Positions 1,856 to 39,734 of a DNA stretch of 42,668 bases are shown one piece after another. Each line of letters starts with the position of its first letter. The stretch's first letter is position 1. The notes under the pieces are model-generated. The model worked only from the letters and a program-made list of their open reading frames with translations, was not told the origin of the DNA and made no database searches. This DNA is from Rhodospirillales bacterium (GTDB lineage Bacteria > Pseudomonadota > Alphaproteobacteria > Acetobacterales > Acetobacteraceae). Location of the stretch: the NCBI GenBank assembly GCA_947458025.1, contig CANHCJ010000004.1, positions 1 through 42,668 of the forward strand. The letters are read 5' to 3'. A program made the translations under genes and the position numbers.

Positions 1856-2278
1856 TTACGATAACGGAATAATAAGGGCGTGGCTGCTGGCCCGTGCCTG
1901 GGGCCGGTTTTTCGGTGGGGTGGGGGGTAGCCTGCGCTGCGCCGTGGTGGTGGGGCGCGGATCGGGCGGGGGGCGGGGGGTTTGGGGGCGGAGTACGGGC
2001 GTGGGGTGCATGCCGAGGTTGGGGAAGCAGCGCATGATCCAGCCGCGCAGAAGGCCCAGGGCGATGTGGGTGGTGTGGGCCGGGGCGTCCGGCGCGAGGG
2101 CGGCGAGGAAGGAGGGGGGGAGGTCGTCGCCGCGGGCGAGCAGGCGGCGATAGCCGGCCGGCAGGCGGGCGAAGGCGCGCAACAGGGCGACCAGCAGCAG
2201 CAGCACGCAGGCGCCGGCGACGAACGCAAGGGTGGCGTGCGGTCGCGCTTTGGCCTGGGTTGCGGGGTGTGCTGACAT
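1856..2278 (-). CDS. hypothetical single-pass membrane protein
   Basis: A 140-residue protein of unknown function. One hydrophobic helix (about residues 15-33, AFVAGACVLLLLVALL) follows a short positively charged N-terminus. Then comes a soluble stretch containing RLPAGYRRLLARGDDLPPSFLAAL and a Pro/Arg-rich C-terminus from about residue 95, so it is probably anchored in the inner membrane. The ATG at 2278 is supported by an excellent promoter ending 6 bases upstream (2285-2313) and not by a ribosome binding site, which suggests a leaderless mRNA. It converges with the ThDP enzyme gene across a 15-bp hairpin. The C-terminal low complexity makes the 3' part less certain. Confidence 0.6.
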   Translation of the reverse strand: MSAHPATQAKARPHATLAFVAGACVLLLLVALLRAFARLPAGYRRLLARGDDLPPSFLAALAPDAPAHTTHIALGLLRGWIMRCFPNLGMHPTPVLRPQTPRPPPDPRPTTTAQRRLPPTPPKNRPQARASSHALIIPLS

Positions 2279-2284
2279 AATGGG

Positions 2285-2313
2285 AATATATCTAACGTTC
2301 TCCGGCGGTGCAA
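2285..2313 (-). promoter_or_regulatory. sigma70-type promoter for the 1856-2278 gene, probably leaderless
   Basis: Read on the minus strand: TTGCAC (2313-2308), a 17-nt spacer, TATATT (2290-2285), then CCCATT and ATG. The -10 ends 6 bases before the start codon, so the expected transcription start is the A of the ATG. No purine-rich ribosome binding site exists in between. In DNA this GC-rich, such a close match to both hexamers with ideal spacing is unlikely by chance. Confidence 0.7.
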
Positions 2314-2330
2314 GGGATTATTGGGGGTGC

Positions 2331-2476
2331 CGAAGGAAGCGGTTCTTTTTTGAAAAAAAGAACCAAAAAACTTTTCCCCGTTGGAAGCGGAAAGACTCGG
2401 CCTTGCCGCGCGCAAACGGAGAAAAGTCTTTTTGCTTCTTTTTCTTCAGAAAAAGAAGATTCTTGCTTACTTCCTT
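2331..2476. repeat. AT-rich cloverleaf repeat, copy 1
   Basis: First of three copies of a dispersed palindromic element. It contains hairpin A (2341-2364; 11-bp stem GGTTCTTTTTT, 2-nt loop GA) and hairpin B (2435-2458; 10-bp stem CTTCTTTTTC, loop TTCA). The central arm pairs AAAAAACTTTTCC with GGAGAAAAGTCTTTTT and continues as CCGTTGG against CAAACGG. The outer arms GAAGGAAGC and GCTTACTTC are also complementary. The right end contains the TAA stop of the minus-strand membrane protein (2475-2477). The left end lies 17 bp from the -35 box of the 1856-2278 gene. A terminator role for the minus-strand gene and origin as a MITE/REP-like element are inferences. Confidence 0.8.
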
Positions 2477-2933
2477 ATCGCCGCGGCAACGCCGGCTTGA
2501 AGTATTTCATGGTAATGGCGCTGTAGAACACCCAGAGCCCGAGGCCGAAGCTGAGCCCGATGGAGAGTCCGCGCAGCCAGGCCATGAGTTGCCAGCCGCC
2601 GGCGATGGGCGTGCCGCGCAGGGCGGCGATGACGAAGAAGCCGACCATGGTGGTGGCGGCGCCGGTGAGCAGGGCCAGCGTGAGCGGGCTGAAGCGCACC
2701 CGGCCGACGAGCAGGCCGAAGGCGGCGCCGTAGAGCCCGCCCCAGAAGCATTGGTTGACCAGCGTGGGCAGGCCGTAGGCGCGCGGGTTGGCGGCCAGGT
2801 TCCAGACGATGGCGGTGCGCGGGAAGCCGAACAGGCCGGTTTCGCGCAGCAGCAGGATCATGCCCTGGTGGAACACGATGACGCTGAGCACCGCGGCGAG
2901 GAAGCCGATGGCCAGGCGTTGGGTGGTTGACAT
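2475..2933 (-). CDS. conserved four-helix integral membrane protein, function unknown
   Basis: A 152-residue very hydrophobic protein with four predicted helices (about residues 7-29, 57-77, 83-105 and 118-139). Conserved-looking motifs are FHQGM after helix 1 and NQCFWGGLYGAAFGLL in helix 2. The short basic N-terminus MSTTQR fits an inner-membrane protein without a cleaved signal. The ATG at 2933 has GGGGG about 8 bases upstream. The reading frame stays open far upstream, but that part is Arg/His/Pro-rich shadow sequence opposite the SH3 gene. It is divergent from that gene across 108 bp. The stop codon is embedded in repeat copy 1. No function is assigned. Confidence 0.8.
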   Translation of the reverse strand: MSTTQRLAIGFLAAVLSVIVFHQGMILLLRETGLFGFPRTAIVWNLAANPRAYGLPTLVNQCFWGGLYGAAFGLLVGRVRFSPLTLALLTGAATTMVGFFVIAALRGTPIAGGWQLMAWLRGLSIGLSFGLGLWVFYSAITMKYFKPALPRR

Positions 2934-3041
2934 GCTGCTACCCCCGGTTTGATGCGAGTGTGATGCGGAAGCGGCCACCGAGTCCACTCCCGCGGGGATT
3001 TCGGCTAAGGCAGGGGCGGGCGTGGCCGCGAAGGGGGCATC

Positions 3042-3731
3042 TTGGGCGAGGTCAGCGGCGAGGATCTGGAACGGCTGGCCAACCGCGTGGCCTTGCTGGT
3101 TTCCGACGATGGCGAGGCGGACAATGCCGGCCGGGCGGTGGGCCAGCTGGCGCGGCGGCTGGGGCTTTCGGGCGGGGACCTGAAGGCGCTGGTGCTGGCC
3201 GGGGCGGGGGCAGGGTTCCGGCCGGGCAGCACGCCGGGCCTGCTGAAGCTGGAGCAGGAGATCGACGCGCTGCGGCGCGAGCTGCGCGAGGCGCGCGAGG
3301 CCGAGCGGGCGGCGATGCAGGACCGCGATGCGCTGGTGGCCGAGAACGGGGCGATGCGGGTGGCGATCTACCGCCGGCGCGCCGGGGCGAAGATGTGGTC
3401 GCTGGTGCTGGGGCTCGGCGCGGTCGGCGTGGTGCTGGTGGCCGTGGGGGTGGTGCTGCTGGCGCCCGATCCGGCGCCGGTGCCGATGGGCGCGTCGTTG
3501 GGGCTGCGCGGCGACGGGGCGACCCCGTCGGCGCGGCTGGCGATGGTGCGGGGCGGCGGGGCGGTGCTGTATCGCGAGCCCGATCGGAGTTCGCAGGTGA
3601 TCGGGCGGCTGGGGGCGGGGACGCGGCTGCTGGTACAGCGCATGGAATGGCGCAGCATGATGCAGTGGGCGCAGGTGGAGGTGGAGGGGCGCGTGGGGTA
3701 TGTGGCGACCACCGAGGTGGAGATATTCTAA
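3042..3731 (+). CDS. coiled-coil / membrane / SH3-like domain protein
   Basis: A 229-residue protein with a clear modular layout. It has an N-terminal helical region, a Glu/Arg/Ala-rich coiled coil (about 67-108), one transmembrane helix (about 118-141), and a C-terminal bacterial SH3-like domain (about 165-229; AMVRGGGAVLYREPDRSSQVIGRL ending GYVATTEVEIF). Such SH3b domains usually bind cell-wall or protein ligands, so the C-terminus is expected in the periplasm and the coiled coil in the cytoplasm. The start is a TTG at 3042 with AAGGGGG upstream; no ATG precedes the conserved part. The TAA stop lies inside repeat copy 2, and the gene converges on eutC. The partner is unknown. Confidence 0.78.
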   Translation: MGEVSGEDLERLANRVALLVSDDGEADNAGRAVGQLARRLGLSGGDLKALVLAGAGAGFRPGSTPGLLKLEQEIDALRRELREAREAERAAMQDRDALVAENGAMRVAIYRRRAGAKMWSLVLGLGAVGVVLVAVGVVLLAPDPAPVPMGASLGLRGDGATPSARLAMVRGGGAVLYREPDRSSQVIGRLGAGTRLLVQRMEWRSMMQWAQVEVEGRVGYVATTEVEIF

Positions 3732-3859
3732 GTAAGAAAGCGGTTCTTTTTTGAAAAAAAGAACCAAAAAACTTTTGCCCGTTTGGGGCGGTGCTCTCGG
3801 CGCCAAGGTGGAAAGTTTTTTTGCTTCTTTTTGTTCACAAAAAGAAGAGTCCTTGCTTA
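3730..3859. repeat. AT-rich cloverleaf repeat, copy 2
   Basis: Second copy, filling the gap between the convergent SH3 gene (stop 3729-3731) and eutC (stop 3857-3859). Hairpin A (3742-3765) is identical to the other copies. Hairpin B (3824-3847) has its loop-closing pair changed from C-G to G-C on both sides, so pairing is kept. The central arm differs in sequence but still pairs (CCCGTTTGGGGCG against CGCCAAGGTGG, imperfectly). The outer ends AAGTAAG and CTTGCTTAA each contain a stop codon. The location is ideal for a bidirectional terminator. Confidence 0.85.
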
Positions 3860-4588
3860 ACGCAGCACCGCAACCGGCATGGGCTGTTCGTCCTTGAGCG
3901 CGACGCCGGTGAGCCGGAGGCGGCGCATGGCGGCGATGAGCCAGAGGAGCTTGGCCGCGGCGTCCGGGATGGGCAGGCCTTCCGGGCGGATGTTGGAGAT
4001 GCAGTTGCGTTCGGCATCCGTGCGGCCCGGGCGGGGCTGCCAGGTGAGGTAGACGCCAAGGCTGTCGGGGGTGGAGAGGCCGGGGCGTTCGCCGATCAGG
4101 ACGGCGACGGCCTGGGCGCCGAGGGCGGCGCCGATCTCGTCGCCGAGGGCGACGCGGCCCTGGCGGGCGATGATGACGGGGCCGGGCTCGGCCAGGGCGG
4201 GCATGACCTGGGCGAGCAGGGGGGCGGCGTGGCGCTGGACGGCGGTGGCGGAGAGGCCGTCGGCGACGACGAAGGCGATGCCGGGGAGCTTCGGGAGGTG
4301 GGCGGCCTGGCCTTCGGCGAGGCGGCGGCCGAGGTCGGGGCGCAGGAGATAGGTGCGGCGATCCGGGCAGGCGCTGTGGACGACCTGGCTGGGGAGGTCG
4401 GCGGCGGCGAGGTCGGCGGCGAGCTGGGCGGTGTTCAGCTCGGCGTGGACGGCGTCGCGCGCGGCGGCGTGGGCGGCCTGGAATTCCAGGTGGGCGGCGG
4501 TGGGCAGGCCGTTGCCGGCGCGGCCGAGGGCGACGCGGGCGGGGGTGAAGCGGCGGAGATCGCGCCAGAGGGTGGGGGGCGTGCTCAT
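3857..4588 (-). CDS. eutC: ethanolamine ammonia-lyase, small (light) subunit
   Basis: A 243-residue EutC. With EutB it forms the adenosylcobalamin-dependent lyase that converts ethanolamine to acetaldehyde and ammonia. The light subunit helps hold the cobalamin. Family segments visible are SACPDRRTYLLRPDLGRRL, IAFVVADGLSATAVQ, VIIARQGRVALGDEIG, VLIGERPGLSTPDSLGVYLTW and the C-terminal ERNCISNIRPEGLP. The ATG at 4588 overlaps the eutB stop as ATGA, indicating translational coupling. Length is slightly below enteric EutC (about 295), lacking its N-terminal extension. No eutA, permease or microcompartment shell gene is nearby. The stop sits in repeat copy 2. Confidence 0.95.
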   Translation of the reverse strand: MSTPPTLWRDLRRFTPARVALGRAGNGLPTAAHLEFQAAHAAARDAVHAELNTAQLAADLAAADLPSQVVHSACPDRRTYLLRPDLGRRLAEGQAAHLPKLPGIAFVVADGLSATAVQRHAAPLLAQVMPALAEPGPVIIARQGRVALGDEIGAALGAQAVAVLIGERPGLSTPDSLGVYLTWQPRPGRTDAERNCISNIRPEGLPIPDAAAKLLWLIAAMRRLRLTGVALKDEQPMPVAVLR

Positions 4589-5955
4589 GCCAGGCCCACC
4601 AGGGCGGGGGAGAGTGGGGCGGGGATCTGGGCCGGGGTGGCGGTGGCGAGGCCCATCCGGGCGAGCCAGGATTCGAATTCCGGGGCGGGGCGCAGGTTGA
4701 GGGTGCTGCGCAGGTAGAGGGCGTCGTGGAAGGAGGTGCTCTGGTATGAGAGCATCACGTCGTCCGCACCCGGGACGCCCATGATGTAGGTGACGCCGGC
4801 GGCGCCGAGCAGGGTGAGCAGGGCGTCCATGTCGTCCTGGTCGGCTTCGGCGTGGTTGGTGTAGCAGACGTCCACCCCCATCGGCAGGCCGAGGAGCTTG
4901 CCGCAGAGATGGTCCTCCAACCCGGCGCGGATGATCTGCTTGCCGTCGTGGAGGTATTCCGGGCCGATGAAGCCGACGACGGTGTTGACCAGCAGCGGCG
5001 CGAAGCGGCGGGCGACGGCGTAGGCGCGGGCCTCGATGGTCTGCTGGTCCACGTCGTGGTGGGCGTTGGCGGACAGCGCGCTGCCCTGGCCGGTTTCGAA
5101 ATACATGACGTTCTGGCCGACCGTGCCGCGGTTGAGGGCGAGGGCGGCGGCCTGGGCTTCGGCGAGCAGGGCGAGGTCGATGCCGAAGCTGGTGTTGGCG
5201 GCCTGCGTGCCGGCGATGGACTGGAAGACGAGGTCGACGGGCGCGCCTTCCTCGATGCAGCGCAGGGCGGTGGTGACGTGGGCGAGCACGCAGGTTTGGG
5301 TGGGGATGGCGTAGCGGGCGCGGACGTCGTCGAGCATCTTCAGCAGGGTGGTGGTGGCGGCGACGCTGTCGGTGGCGGGGTTGACGCCGATGACGGCGTC
5401 TCCGGCGCCGAGCAGGAGGCCATCGAGCGTGGAGGCGGCGACGCCGCGCGGGTCGTCGACGGGGTGGTTGGGCTGGAGGCGGACGGAGAGGCGGCCGGGC
5501 AGGCCGATGGTGTTGCGGAAGGCGGTGGTGACGCGGCACTTGGCGGCGATGGCGACCAGGTCCTGCAGGCGGCAGATCTTGGAGACGGCGGCGGCCATTT
5601 CGGGGGTGAGGCCGGGGCGCAGGGCCGTGAGGGTCTCGGTGGTGGCCTCGGCCAGCAGCCAGTCGCGGAAGCCGCCGATGGTGAGGTGGGCGATGGGGGC
5701 GAAGGCGGCTTGGTCGTGGCTGTCGATGATGAGGCGGGTGACCTCGTCGGCCTCGTAGGGGATGACGGCTTCGGTGAGGAAGTGGCGCAGCGGGAGGTCG
5801 GCGAGGGCCAGCTGGGCGGCGACGCGCTCGGAGGCGGAGGCGGCGGCGAGGCCGGCCAGCGCGTCGCCGGAGCGGTGCGGGGTGGCGCGGGCGAGCAGGA
5901 TGCGCAGGCTGGGGAAGGTGTAGCGCGTGCCGTTGACGGTGGCGGCGTGGGGCAT
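4585..5955 (-). CDS. eutB: ethanolamine ammonia-lyase, large (heavy) subunit
   Basis: A 456-residue TIM-barrel catalytic subunit. Active-site segments aligned from memory with E. coli EutB are RLQPNHP (R159 and Q161, matching R160 and Q162), YFETGQGSALS (the E287 equivalent) and GVDVCYTNHAEADQDD (the D362 equivalent). All key residues appear intact. The ATG at 5955 is chosen because GGAG lies 8 bases upstream and MPHAATVNGTRYTF matches the family N-terminus; the longer open frame to 6012 is not protein-like. The 4-nt overlap with eutC marks an operon. A membrane protein gene ends 64 bp upstream on the same strand. Ethanolamine use here would be cytosolic, since no shell genes are seen. Confidence 0.96.
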   Translation of the reverse strand: MPHAATVNGTRYTFPSLRILLARATPHRSGDALAGLAAASASERVAAQLALADLPLRHFLTEAVIPYEADEVTRLIIDSHDQAAFAPIAHLTIGGFRDWLLAEATTETLTALRPGLTPEMAAAVSKICRLQDLVAIAAKCRVTTAFRNTIGLPGRLSVRLQPNHPVDDPRGVAASTLDGLLLGAGDAVIGVNPATDSVAATTTLLKMLDDVRARYAIPTQTCVLAHVTTALRCIEEGAPVDLVFQSIAGTQAANTSFGIDLALLAEAQAAALALNRGTVGQNVMYFETGQGSALSANAHHDVDQQTIEARAYAVARRFAPLLVNTVVGFIGPEYLHDGKQIIRAGLEDHLCGKLLGLPMGVDVCYTNHAEADQDDMDALLTLLGAAGVTYIMGVPGADDVMLSYQSTSFHDALYLRSTLNLRPAPEFESWLARMGLATATPAQIPAPLSPALVGLA

Positions 5956-37281: not shown

Positions 37282-38556
37282 ATGCCCGCCACCGGCCCCC
37301 TCGCGGACCGGCTGCGCCCGCGCGCCCTGCCGGAGGTCGTGGGCCAGGACCACCTGCTCGGCCCCGCCGGCACCCTCACGCGGATGCTCCAGCGCGGCTC
37401 GCTCGCCTCGCTCATCCTCTGGGGCCCGCCCGGCGTGGGCAAGACCACCATCGCCCGGCTGCTGGCCGAACAGGCCAACCTGCATTTCGTCCAGCTCTCC
37501 GCCGTGTTCTCGGGCGTCGCCGACCTCAAGAAATGCTTCGAGGAGGCCACGCGCCGCCGCGCCCACGGCCAGGCCACGCTGCTGTTCGTCGACGAGATCC
37601 ACCGCTTCAACCGCGCCCAGCAAGACGGCTTCCTGCCGGTGGTGGAGAACGGCACCGTCACCCTGATCGGCGCCACCACGGAGAACCCCAGCTTCGCGCT
37701 GAACGGCGCGCTGCTCTCGCGCTGCCAAGTGCTGGTGCTGAAGCGCCTGGACGACCAGGGCCTCGACCTCCTCCTGCAGCGCGCCGAGGCCGCCATCGGC
37801 CACGCCCTGCCGGTGAACGAGGAAGCCCGCGCCACGCTGCGCGCCATGGCCGATGGCGATGGCCGCTACCTGCTGAACCTCGCCGAGCAGCTCGCCGCCC
37901 TGCCGCCCGAGACCGCGCCGCTCGACGTGCCGGAACTGTCGGAACTGCTGGCCAAGCGCGCCGCGCTCTACGACAAGGACCGCGAGGAGCACTACAACCT
38001 CATCTCCGCCCTGCACAAATCCCTGCGCGGCAGCGATTGCGACGCCGCCCTCTACTGGCTCGCCCGCATGCTGGTGGGCGGGGAGGACCCGCGCTACATC
38101 GCCCGCCGCCTGCTGCGCTTCGCCAGCGAGGATGTCGGCATGGCCGACCCCCAGGCCCTGCAGATCACGCTGGCCGCCTGGGAGACCTATGAGCGCCTCG
38201 GCTCGCCGGAGGGCGAACTCGCCATCGCCCAGGCCGTGGTCTATCTCGGCACCGCGCCGAAATCGAACGCGCTCTACACCGCCCTCGGCGCCGCCCAGCG
38301 CGCCGCGAAAGGCACCGGCAGCCTGATGCCCCCCGCCCACATCCTCAACGCGCCCACCAAGCTGATGAAGAACCTCGGCTACGGCGCCGGCTACGCCTAC
38401 GACCACGATGCGGAGGACGGCTTCAGCGGCCAGAACTACTTCCCGGACACGATGCCGCGGCAGCAATTCTACCACCCCGTGGAACGCGGTTTCGAACGTG
38501 AGGTCGGCAAGCGCCTTGCCTACTGGGCCAAGCTGCGCCAGGACCGGGGCACATGA
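37282..38556 (+). CDS. rarA: replication-associated recombination protein A (AAA+ ATPase)
   Basis: A 424-residue RarA/MgsA, a clamp-loader-like ATPase acting at stalled replication forks. Walker A is GPPGVGKTT (48-56), Walker [11 protein letters not shown] (D104, E105), and sensor 1 GATTENPSF. The C-terminal family region includes [18 protein letters not shown] and [28 protein letters not shown]. The start is uncertain: the ATG at 37282 has GGAG only 3 bases away, while an in-frame GTG at 37252 lies 6 bases after TATACT and would add ten residues. It overlaps the next gene by 4 bases (ATGA). Confidence 0.95.
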
Positions 38557-39551
38557 GCGTCACCACCAGAGAAGTCACCGAGGACGAGGCCGATATCCGC
38601 CTCGACCGCTGGTTCCGCCGCCACTTCCCGGGCCTCACCCAGGGTGTGATCCACAAGCTGTGCCGCACCGGCCAGGTGCGCGTGGACGGCAAGCGCGCGG
38701 AGGCCGCCACCCGCCTCGCGCCCGGCCAGGCGATCCGCATTCCGCCGCTGCCCAGCGGCCCCGCCCCGGCGCCCGCCCCACCCCCGCTCGACCCCGCGCT
38801 CACCCGCGAGATCGAAGCGATGATCCTGTACCGGGACGACCAGCTGATCGTGCTCAACAAGCCGCCCGGCCTGCCCACCCAGGGCGGGCCCGGGATCGGC
38901 AAGCATCTGGACATGATGCTGGCCGCCCTGCGCAACGCCGAGGGCGAGAAGCCGCGCCTGGTCCACCGGCTGGACAAGGACACCTCCGGCGTTCTCGTGG
39001 TCGCCCGCACCCCCGGCATCGCCGCCAAGCTCGCCGCCGCCTTCCGCGGGCGGACGGTGGAGAAAACCTACTGGGCCGTGGTGGCCGGCCGCCCCGTGCC
39101 GGTGGAAGGCCGCATCGAGCGCGACCTGGTGCGCATCGACGGCTTCCGCGGCGAGCGGGCCGCCGTGGCCGGGCCCTACGACGAGGACACCGCCCACTCC
39201 ATCACCGACTACCGCACGCTGGACCACGCCGGGCGCAAGCTCGCCTGGCTGGAACTGCGGCCGCTCACCGGGCGCACCCACCAGCTGCGGGTGCATTGCG
39301 CCAGCATCGGCGCGCCGATCCTGGGCGATGCGCCCTACGGCACGGAGAAGCAGGACGAGGGCAACCGCAACTCCGCCCTGGTGGAAGGCTTCGCCGAACG
39401 CCTGCACCTGCACGCCCGGCGGCTCTCGCTGCCGCACCCGGCGGGGGGCACGCTCACGGTGGAGGCGGACCTGCCTGCGCATATGGCGGAGACGTTCCGG
39501 GCCCTGGCGTTCTCGGTGCCGGCGGTGATGAAGCCGAAGCGAAGCAAGTAA
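38553..39551 (+). CDS. rluC: RluA-family 23S rRNA pseudouridine synthase (RluC-like)
   Basis: A 332-residue pseudouridine synthase. The N-terminal S4 RNA-binding domain is RLDRWFRRHFPGLTQGVIHKLCRTGQVRVDGKRAE. A Pro/Ala linker (about 65-80) precedes the catalytic domain, with the HRLDKDTSG motif (catalytic D141) and RPLTGRTHQLRVH. RluC modifies three uridines of 23S rRNA; the exact target set here is inferred from family and from the rarA-rluC-ATP12 neighbourhood common in Alphaproteobacteria. The ATG overlaps the rarA stop (ATGA), so the two are coupled. The TAA stop lies in repeat copy 3. Confidence 0.93.
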   Translation: MSVTTREVTEDEADIRLDRWFRRHFPGLTQGVIHKLCRTGQVRVDGKRAEAATRLAPGQAIRIPPLPSGPAPAPAPPPLDPALTREIEAMILYRDDQLIVLNKPPGLPTQGGPGIGKHLDMMLAALRNAEGEKPRLVHRLDKDTSGVLVVARTPGIAAKLAAAFRGRTVEKTYWAVVAGRPVPVEGRIERDLVRIDGFRGERAAVAGPYDEDTAHSITDYRTLDHAGRKLAWLELRPLTGRTHQLRVHCASIGAPILGDAPYGTEKQDEGNRNSALVEGFAERLHLHARRLSLPHPAGGTLTVEADLPAHMAETFRALAFSVPAVMKPKRSK

Positions 39552-39680
39552 GGAAGGGGTTCTTTTTTGAAAAAAAGAACCAAAAAACTTTTCCGACTTG
39601 GCGCGGGGCTGGCCCGGGCGCAAAGTGGGAAAAGTCTTTTTGCTTCTTTTTCTTCAGAAAAAGAAGACTCCTTCCTTCCC
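39547..39680. repeat. AT-rich cloverleaf repeat, copy 3
   Basis: Third copy, starting at the rluC stop (TAA 39549-39551). Hairpin A is at 39558-39581 and hairpin B at 39643-39666, both identical in sequence to copy 1. The central arm is different again yet complementary (ACTTGGCGCGGG against CCCGGGCGCAAAGT with one mismatch and small bulges). The outer arms AAGGAAGGGGTTC and GACTCCTTCCTT pair. The asmA-like gene starts 55 bp downstream, so the element may end the rarA-rluC transcript. Confidence 0.85.
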
Positions 39681-39734
39681 TTCCCCCGCCCGCGCCCCAT
39701 GCGCTAGGACAGGTCCGGAACCTTCGGAGCAGGC

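Follow-up and report, generated by a model that had tools for sequence, protein, structure and literature searches.

A palindromic repeat family of Acetobacteraceae that lies mostly at gene 3' ends and often supplies stop codons

Three times in a 42,668-nt stretch of an Acetobacteraceae genome (Rhodospirillales bacterium, contig CANHCJ010000004.1; hereafter the window, meaning the whole stretch), a short A/T-rich element recurs that can fold on itself. Is it a mobile repeat, a structured RNA or a signal belonging to the ends of genes? Reading the window sequence confirmed the three elements of the original prediction, with a common hairpin A, AAAAAACTTTT and hairpin B. The units are ordered hairpin A, AAAAAACTTTT, a variable centre, an AAAG(T/C)TTTTTG-like tract and hairpin B, with short AAG/CTT edges outside. 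Copy 1 (all coordinates on the + strand) has a left edge GAAGGAAGC at 2332–2340, placed from the sequence and from the edge statistics described below, hairpin A with a 10-bp stem and a 4-nt loop at 2341–2364, a central arm at 2365–2434 composed of AAAAAACTTTT, a variable self-complementary centre and AAAAGTCTTTTTG, hairpin B at 2435–2458, and a right edge of CTT repeats at 2459–2476. The corresponding parts of copy 2 are the left edge (3730–3741), hairpin A (3742–3765), central arm (3766–3823), hairpin B (3824–3847) and right edge (3848–3861), and those of copy 3 are the left edge TAAGGAAGG (39549–39557), hairpin A (39558–39581), central arm (39582–39642), hairpin B (39643–39666) and a CTT-rich right edge (39667–39683). 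Hairpin A, GGTTCTTTTTTGAAAAAAAGAACC, shows no difference among the three copies, nor does AAAAAACTTTT. Hairpin B is identical in two of them, and in copy 2 it is a GTTCAC variant with a compensated C-G to G-C change, found also at the orthologous site in the congeners G001 and G005.

The stops next to all three window copies are TAA codons formed within an edge. At copy 1, TTA at 2475–2477 is the TAA stop of a minus-strand ORF (2475–2930). Copy 2 serves both sides: TAA at 3729–3731 (TAAGTAAG) ends the plus-strand ORF 3042–3731, and on the minus strand the ORF 3857–5539, with an EutC domain, stops at TAA (TTA at 3857–3859). At copy 3, TAA at 39549–39551 ends a pseudouridine synthase ORF (38553–39551). 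The outer ends had been described as complementary, which holds in part: AAG on the left faces CTT on the right, while the N bases of the (NAAG)n and (CTTN)n edges are not complementary (14 of 66, vs. 19.9 in shuffled edges), which led us to reject an outer stem in which the N positions pair.

We then asked how large the family is. In its own genome (G000; a 4.4 Mb assembly in 521 contigs, 89% complete), at least 40 places match copy 1 by blastn, in addition to three antisense self-matches; the 40 are those scored out of 391 candidates, and all of them matched, a number well above chance. A covariance model built from 38 copies gave at least 150 matches each in G000 and in the congener G005. 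Reading 1.2 Mb of G005, about a quarter of that genome, in 60 pieces yielded 96 elements, 72 full and 24 partial. A rough estimate is therefore about 300 full copies per genome, or a few hundred, rough because the G005 contigs were picked for length and for existing matches. The expectation that many copies exist beyond the three in the window was thus borne out, in this genus and in other Acetobacteraceae. By blastn, 27 of 100 relatives were positive, including all eight congeners, with one weak match (8e-4) outside Acetobacteraceae. Of 200 genomes drawn from the order, the covariance model matched 51, which represent 21 of 52 genera; since the genomes listed in that survey are all Acetobacteraceae (129 negatives are unlisted), it says little about other families. 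Among the matches listed, cultured carriers include Roseomonas sp. GC11, Pseudoroseomonas aestuarii, P. cervicalis, Rhodovarius crocodyli and Gluconacetobacter takamatsuzukensis, and freshwater MAGs are carriers too. Two plasmids of P. cervicalis, a species recorded as Acetobacteraceae, have one copy each. A full copy (L083:6427–6543) shares its IMG/VR contig with a terminase gene (Terminase_6C/6N), so the element is carried by phages or prophages of the hosts. A Microviridae record from cattle blood (MG945182.1:5908–5944) contains a 37-base match, 97.3% identical, to the left arm.

Gene neighbourhoods were examined in the 1.2 Mb of G005, with genes from a simple codon-usage caller (1023 genes, 88.8% coding). 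The 72 full copies fall between tandem (33), convergent (28) and divergent (10) genes, with one inside a gene call. Convergent pairs are enriched: they hold 28 of the 71 intergenic full copies and make up 141 of the 892 other gene pairs (odds ratio 3.5, p = 5e-6). With partial copies added, an element is present in 37 of the 169 convergent pairs, 43 of the 653 tandem pairs and 13 of the 141 divergent pairs; some of the divergent pairs may be artefacts of the gene caller. About one third of the G005 convergent junctions wider than 20 nt hold a full or partial copy. Stops that face an element are close to it, 77 of 89 within 16 nt (median 7), and starts that face one are more distant (n = 53, median 28 nt). 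A RefSeq-based annotation of P. cervicalis agrees: one match has a stop at either end, at distances of 8 and 2 nt, and the other has a stop 4 nt away at one end. In tandem pairs, hairpin A is upstream in 23 full copies and reversed in 10 (p = 0.035); partial copies lean the opposite way, 3 vs. 7.

The edge itself often provides the stop. Among G005 genes beside full copies, 46 of 77 end in TAA, vs. 111 of 946 elsewhere (odds ratio 11, p = 5e-21), and 44 of those 46 read TAAG, so that the edge supplies the stop for 44 of the 77 neighbouring genes. The TGA inside hairpin A is the stop of five further genes. Two sites can be compared with and without the element. At site k2, the empty G008 gene ends GCA GGC TTC AGC GCC GCG TGA, and the filled G005 gene reads via the edge to the hairpin A TGA (frame read by eye). 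At site g5_a, the empty G008 and G004 have an overlapping stop and start (TGATG), the stop in G002 precedes the start by four bases, and genes of the filled species end at the edge. Because filled and empty gene ends differ at both sites, the element changes C-termini.

Orthologous junctions also record how copies come and go, with gain and loss judged from comparisons that have no rooted tree. G002 and G006 have no element at the copy 2 junction, where their genes adjoin directly. The window, G001 and G005 have it in the same orientation with the same hairpin B variant, and G008 and G004 have an inverted element with ordinary arms, which suggests independent insertions at one place, replacement or in-place inversion being the alternatives. 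The copy 3 site is filled in G001, G003, G005, G008 and G004, gives a weak partial match in G002 and none in G006, and has a single hairpin in G007 that looks like a deletion derivative. The copy 1 site has a solo hairpin with similar edges in G001, G005 and G007, and in G003 an ordinary G+C hairpin followed by T's. A segment of the window at 1788–2434 (~650 bases, comprising ORF 1856–2278 and most of copy 1) is without counterpart at the junction in G001 and G005. Site g5_a is empty in G002, G008 and G004, and g5_e in G002, G003, G004 and G006, its gene pair having overlapping stop and start in the empty G002 and G006; as G003 is empty at g5_e though closer relatives are filled, loss or replacement also occurs. 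Site k1 is without this A/T-armed element in G008, G004 and G002, and its slot in G004 and G002 is occupied by a G+C-rich multi-hairpin repeat; k2 is empty in G008. One possible 5-bp target duplication was seen by eye, at g5_a, the other junctions being too diverged. At k2 a lengthened hairpin B is common to G005, G001, G007 and G000, and the centres of G007 and G000 are unlike those of G005 and G001, which points to exchange of the centre alone. Centres within a genome are rarely similar (42 of 1711 pairs at 75% identity or more), so recent amplification is not evident.

Comparison of orthologous copies shows a sharp division between the arms and the centre. A first pass gave 45 of 53 ortholog pairs, of which six were the same site seen via two records; we therefore used 38 of 39 distinct pairs and recomputed flanks by local alignment, because insertions adjoining the element had lowered some flank values. 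Over these 38 distinct comparisons, which share species and sites and hence are not independent, identity is 97.6% in the arms, 91.1% in the flanks and 72.9% in the centres, and arms exceed flanks in 34 of the 38. The 20 comparisons with flanks below 93% give 97.5, 87.3 and 61.4% for arms, flanks and centres, and the 18 with flanks at 93% or above give 97.8, 95.3 and 85.8%. To the right of an element at L206:10335–10451 there is a CGTCATTGCGAGCGCAGCGAAGCAATCC-like segment, missing in the aligned L111 and present in L152. In other genera the arms are identical or almost identical (G009, G050), or have changed on both sides, as in G028, where six of eight full copies read CTTC...GAAG. Among 315 distinct copies, hairpin A was parsed in 301 and hairpin B in 308, with some register shifts remaining; the loop-closing pair of hairpin B is C-G in 252, T-A in 27 and G-C in 13 of the 308.

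The centres had been said to differ and yet stay self-complementary, and each window copy's centre does pair with itself. In G005, where the centres of 59 of the 72 full copies could be parsed, 41 of 59 inner centres pair better than all 30 of their shuffles. The pairing score of a centre's own halves is 27.1, vs. 17.4 when halves are swapped between copies, and 19 of 59 exceed the 95th percentile of swaps. The central stem, which is G+C-rich, lies between A and T tracts. Folded singly as RNA, the copies give z-scores of -2.7 to -6.2 over the two strands. The cloverleaf has a competitor, one long hairpin with A against B, which is the predicted optimum for copy 3 on the + strand; there are thus two folds.

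Could the element then be a structured RNA gene or a tRNA-like regulator? The fold z-scores are what such a reading has in its favour; we regard it as very improbable, as the antisense strand folds as well as the sense strand and the element sits at gene ends in either orientation. The tRNA-like identity was not supported: ARAGORN found 0 genes in the window, and Rfam at its gathering threshold assigned no family there. At eight loci the same threshold returned five tRNAs and a glycine riboswitch and nothing else; the riboswitch aptamer is at L206:5661–5772 in a congener. A permissive Rfam search of 2300–3900 gave five sub-threshold matches, four to the plastid psbA 3'UTR and one to a plasmid RNA, which we deemed chance. 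Tandem copies read in transcript sense have no excess of G-U (G-T 56 vs. A-C 49), and the sense fold has no advantage (-50.5 sense vs. -52.3 kcal/mol antisense, p = 0.17), two results that give no support to selection on the RNA. A terminator-like pattern scan of window 2200–4000 found 3 sites vs. 2.3 in shuffles.

Our preferred explanation, held with moderate confidence, is a non-autonomous MITE/REP-like palindromic family of Acetobacteraceae, ~110–150 bp long, that probably acts as a two-way 3'-end module. The family has a high copy number in several genera, empty sites, adjacency to stops, TAAG supply, nearly frozen arms and a fast-changing paired centre that is at times replaced outright. 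The empty sites and the inverted copy at one junction indicate insertion. Copies would have arrived by insertion at gene 3' ends, and settled copies would be retained as a symmetric module that stops transcription and/or protects mRNA ends in both directions, the A/T tracts around a G+C-rich stem together with the two hairpins being the structure that may do so. Centre replacement would probably occur by recombination between copies via their identical arms. A 3'-end role is favoured by the symmetric layout of A tract, G+C stem and T tract, by the enrichment between convergent genes, and by the ordinary terminator-like hairpin that G003 has at the copy 1 site. Against that role count the lack of a G-U excess, the lack of a sense-strand fold advantage and the unremarkable terminator scan. 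So do g5_a and g5_e, in gene pairs coupled elsewhere, where a strong terminator should do damage if the downstream gene lacks a promoter of its own. The 10 of 72 full copies between divergent genes, in a rough gene call, also count against the preferred explanation, as do the failure to link a transposase or autonomous partner to the family, the single doubtful target duplication and the rarity of similar centres.

Several of these observations would suit a purely selfish palindromic element that survives only where it breaks no gene, with the 3'-end role a matter of tolerance and the stops in the edges taking the harm out of landing at a gene end. Such an element fits the empty sites, the inverted copy found at one junction, the copies lying where other species have coupled gene pairs, the lack of an RNA-sense bias, and the occurrence on plasmids and on a contig that has a phage terminase gene. 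An inert insertion should however decay as neutral spacer, and here the arms are better conserved than the flanks (97.6 vs. 91.1%), the centres still pair and convergent junctions are enriched; we consider pure selfishness possible, with perhaps a minor share of the probability. The arms are conserved beyond a terminator's need, which suggests a sequence-specific partner. They may also be read as a DNA-level binding or cruciform site, for a nucleoid protein, gyrase, replication or condensation, with the RNA incidental. Such a role has been proposed for REP/BIME at gene 3' ends. Pairing maintained without G-U preference and near-exact arms across genera, unneeded by a terminator, speak for a DNA-level site; the tight fit to stop codons, which it does not obviously require, speaks against it, and we think it rather unlikely.

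How would an element of this kind be mobilised? A longer autonomous version with a transposase was sought in 2.53 Mb (overlaps included) and none was found. At L096:745–1414 the arms lie 600 bases apart and enclose an ORF like a GNAT acetyltransferase (named by eye); L109:2949–3618 has equal spacing and probably represents that site in a related genome. Inverted hairpins, each with a short 5' tag (NAAG), resemble a REP/REPIN-type family that a RAYT, an IS200/IS605-like tyrosine transposase, would mobilise, and G001, G005 and G007 each have a single Y1_Tnp match just above the curated cut-off. Matches to PF01797 (RAYT) occur in 11 of 60 genomes overall, and none was found in G000, G002, G003, G004, G006 or G008, all carriers of the element and including the incomplete assemblies G000 (89%) and G006 (68%). 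With six of nine congeners, own genome included, lacking PF01797, RAYT/Y1 mobilisation was rejected as a general account. Neither a GTAG nor a CGTC tag stands 5' of the hairpins, which have NAAG in the genus and other edges in other genera. We accordingly give a RAYT-mobilised family almost no credence.

Searching the genome and its relatives and testing the pairing of centres upheld one of the two original readings, that of a non-coding MITE/REP-like family, in which differences in arms and centre preserve pairing. The placement against stops, the stops in the edges, the insertion polymorphism and the rapid change of the centre go beyond what was visible in the window sequence. Bacterial MITEs are 70–300 bp, palindromic, non-coding, near genes, dispersed and hairpin-forming (PMC3733652; for ERIC and NEMIS, PMC2267715). 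The element is short, palindromic and non-coding, has many dispersed copies, and shows insertion polymorphism with empty orthologous sites; like ERIC, NEMIS/Correia, RUP and YPAL, it matches in size, palindromy, lack of coding and dispersal beside genes. It differs from these MITEs in its stop-supplying edges and in that no related IS was found, and from ERIC, described as one long stem-loop, in having two conserved arms around a fast-changing, replaceable centre. With REP/BIME/REPIN it shares inverted hairpin units beside genes and high copy number, but not a GTAG/CGTC tag or a general RAYT link, and its arms are A/T-rich and its unit larger. CGTC repeats are missing from Acetobacteraceae, according to PMC3733652. 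Bidirectional intrinsic terminators have a similar symmetric stem, A/T tracts, convergent genes and post-stop position; the element is set apart by near-exact arms of 35 and 37 nt, insertion polymorphism and a very short stop distance. Terminators linked to DNA-uptake sequences are described in PMC2267715. No Rfam family matched at the gathering threshold, and no description was found in the literature searched, a search that reached few subscription papers; this absence speaks weakly for novelty. Rhizobial RIME/ABC mosaic elements and Brucella Bru-RS are alphaproteobacterial intergenic palindromic repeats, the same kind of repeat in other hosts, set beside the element here by description. Integron attC sites follow stop codons and have conserved ends and a variable self-complementary middle, a similar layout, whereas the element occurs as dispersed single copies. 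In its behaviour the element resembles the MITE/REP type, and it seems to be a mobile repeat family without earlier description; what is unusual is the combination of stop-supplying edges, frozen arms and an exchangeable centre.

The edges deserve separate attention. In the genus they are degenerate (NAAG)n and (CTTN)n, with AAG or CTT every four bases and N free (both hairpins were recognised in 179 of the 248 copies used for edge statistics). Facing AAGNAAG...CTTNCTT pairs number 68 in the 1.2 Mb of G005, vs. 7 in the opposite order; G011, a genome with no copies of the element, gave counts of 0 and 1 in 217 kb. Period-four edges were rejected as a trait of the whole family. In G005, 55 of 66 copies have AAGNAAG on their left; in Roseomonas GC11 the count is 1 of 20, and in G009 it is 0 of 5. 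One AAG close to the arm occurs more often, with 15 of 20 for Roseomonas GC11 and 0 of 5 for G009. A scan of non-coding sequence for AAGNAAG...CTTNCTT returned 42 rows, 32 from the A/T-armed family, two from a second, G+C-rich family, and eight at four other loci, namely three long palindromes of ACAGAG type and one more G+C-rich multi-hairpin repeat. The G+C-rich family has CCAGGG...CCCTGG arms with ACCC/GGGT (L223:12056–12290; L310 and L311 at k1) and many congener matches. A pattern search of the 1.2 Mb of G005 gave seven distinct two-arm copies (10 rows), with AAG directly before the arm in 7 of 7 and AAGNAAG in 3 of 7. Their nearest facing stops are 1 to 29 nt away, and one copy lies between divergent genes. 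The ACAGAG-type palindromes (L200:3880–4028, L202:5928–6129 and L229:9886–10021) have AAGNAAG...CTTNCTT edges and nearest facing stops at about 0, 73 and 69 nt. A speculative extension, which we doubt, is that in this genus NAAG/CTTN edges would be the landing or mobilisation end of at least three unrelated palindromic families, mobile cassettes that give a stop, a C-terminus and a two-way 3' end, that interchange (as at k1) and that, in the A/T-armed element, recombine their centres. The stop distances of the ACAGAG-type and G+C-rich families count against a common landing rule, and the cassette reading is weakest at the ACAGAG-type family, where most of the three loci stand clear of stops.

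Should the 3'-end role hold, the many orthologous sites, with frozen arms, a free centre, and empty as well as inverted sites, would amount to a natural experiment. Both the constraint on near-exact arms across genera and the recurrence of period-four edges in unrelated repeats become testable. With 37 of 169 convergent junctions holding a full or partial copy in the 1.2 Mb of G005, many gene ends may be rebuilt by a stop-carrying repeat. If the 3'-end role is true, transcript ends can spread as mobile units.
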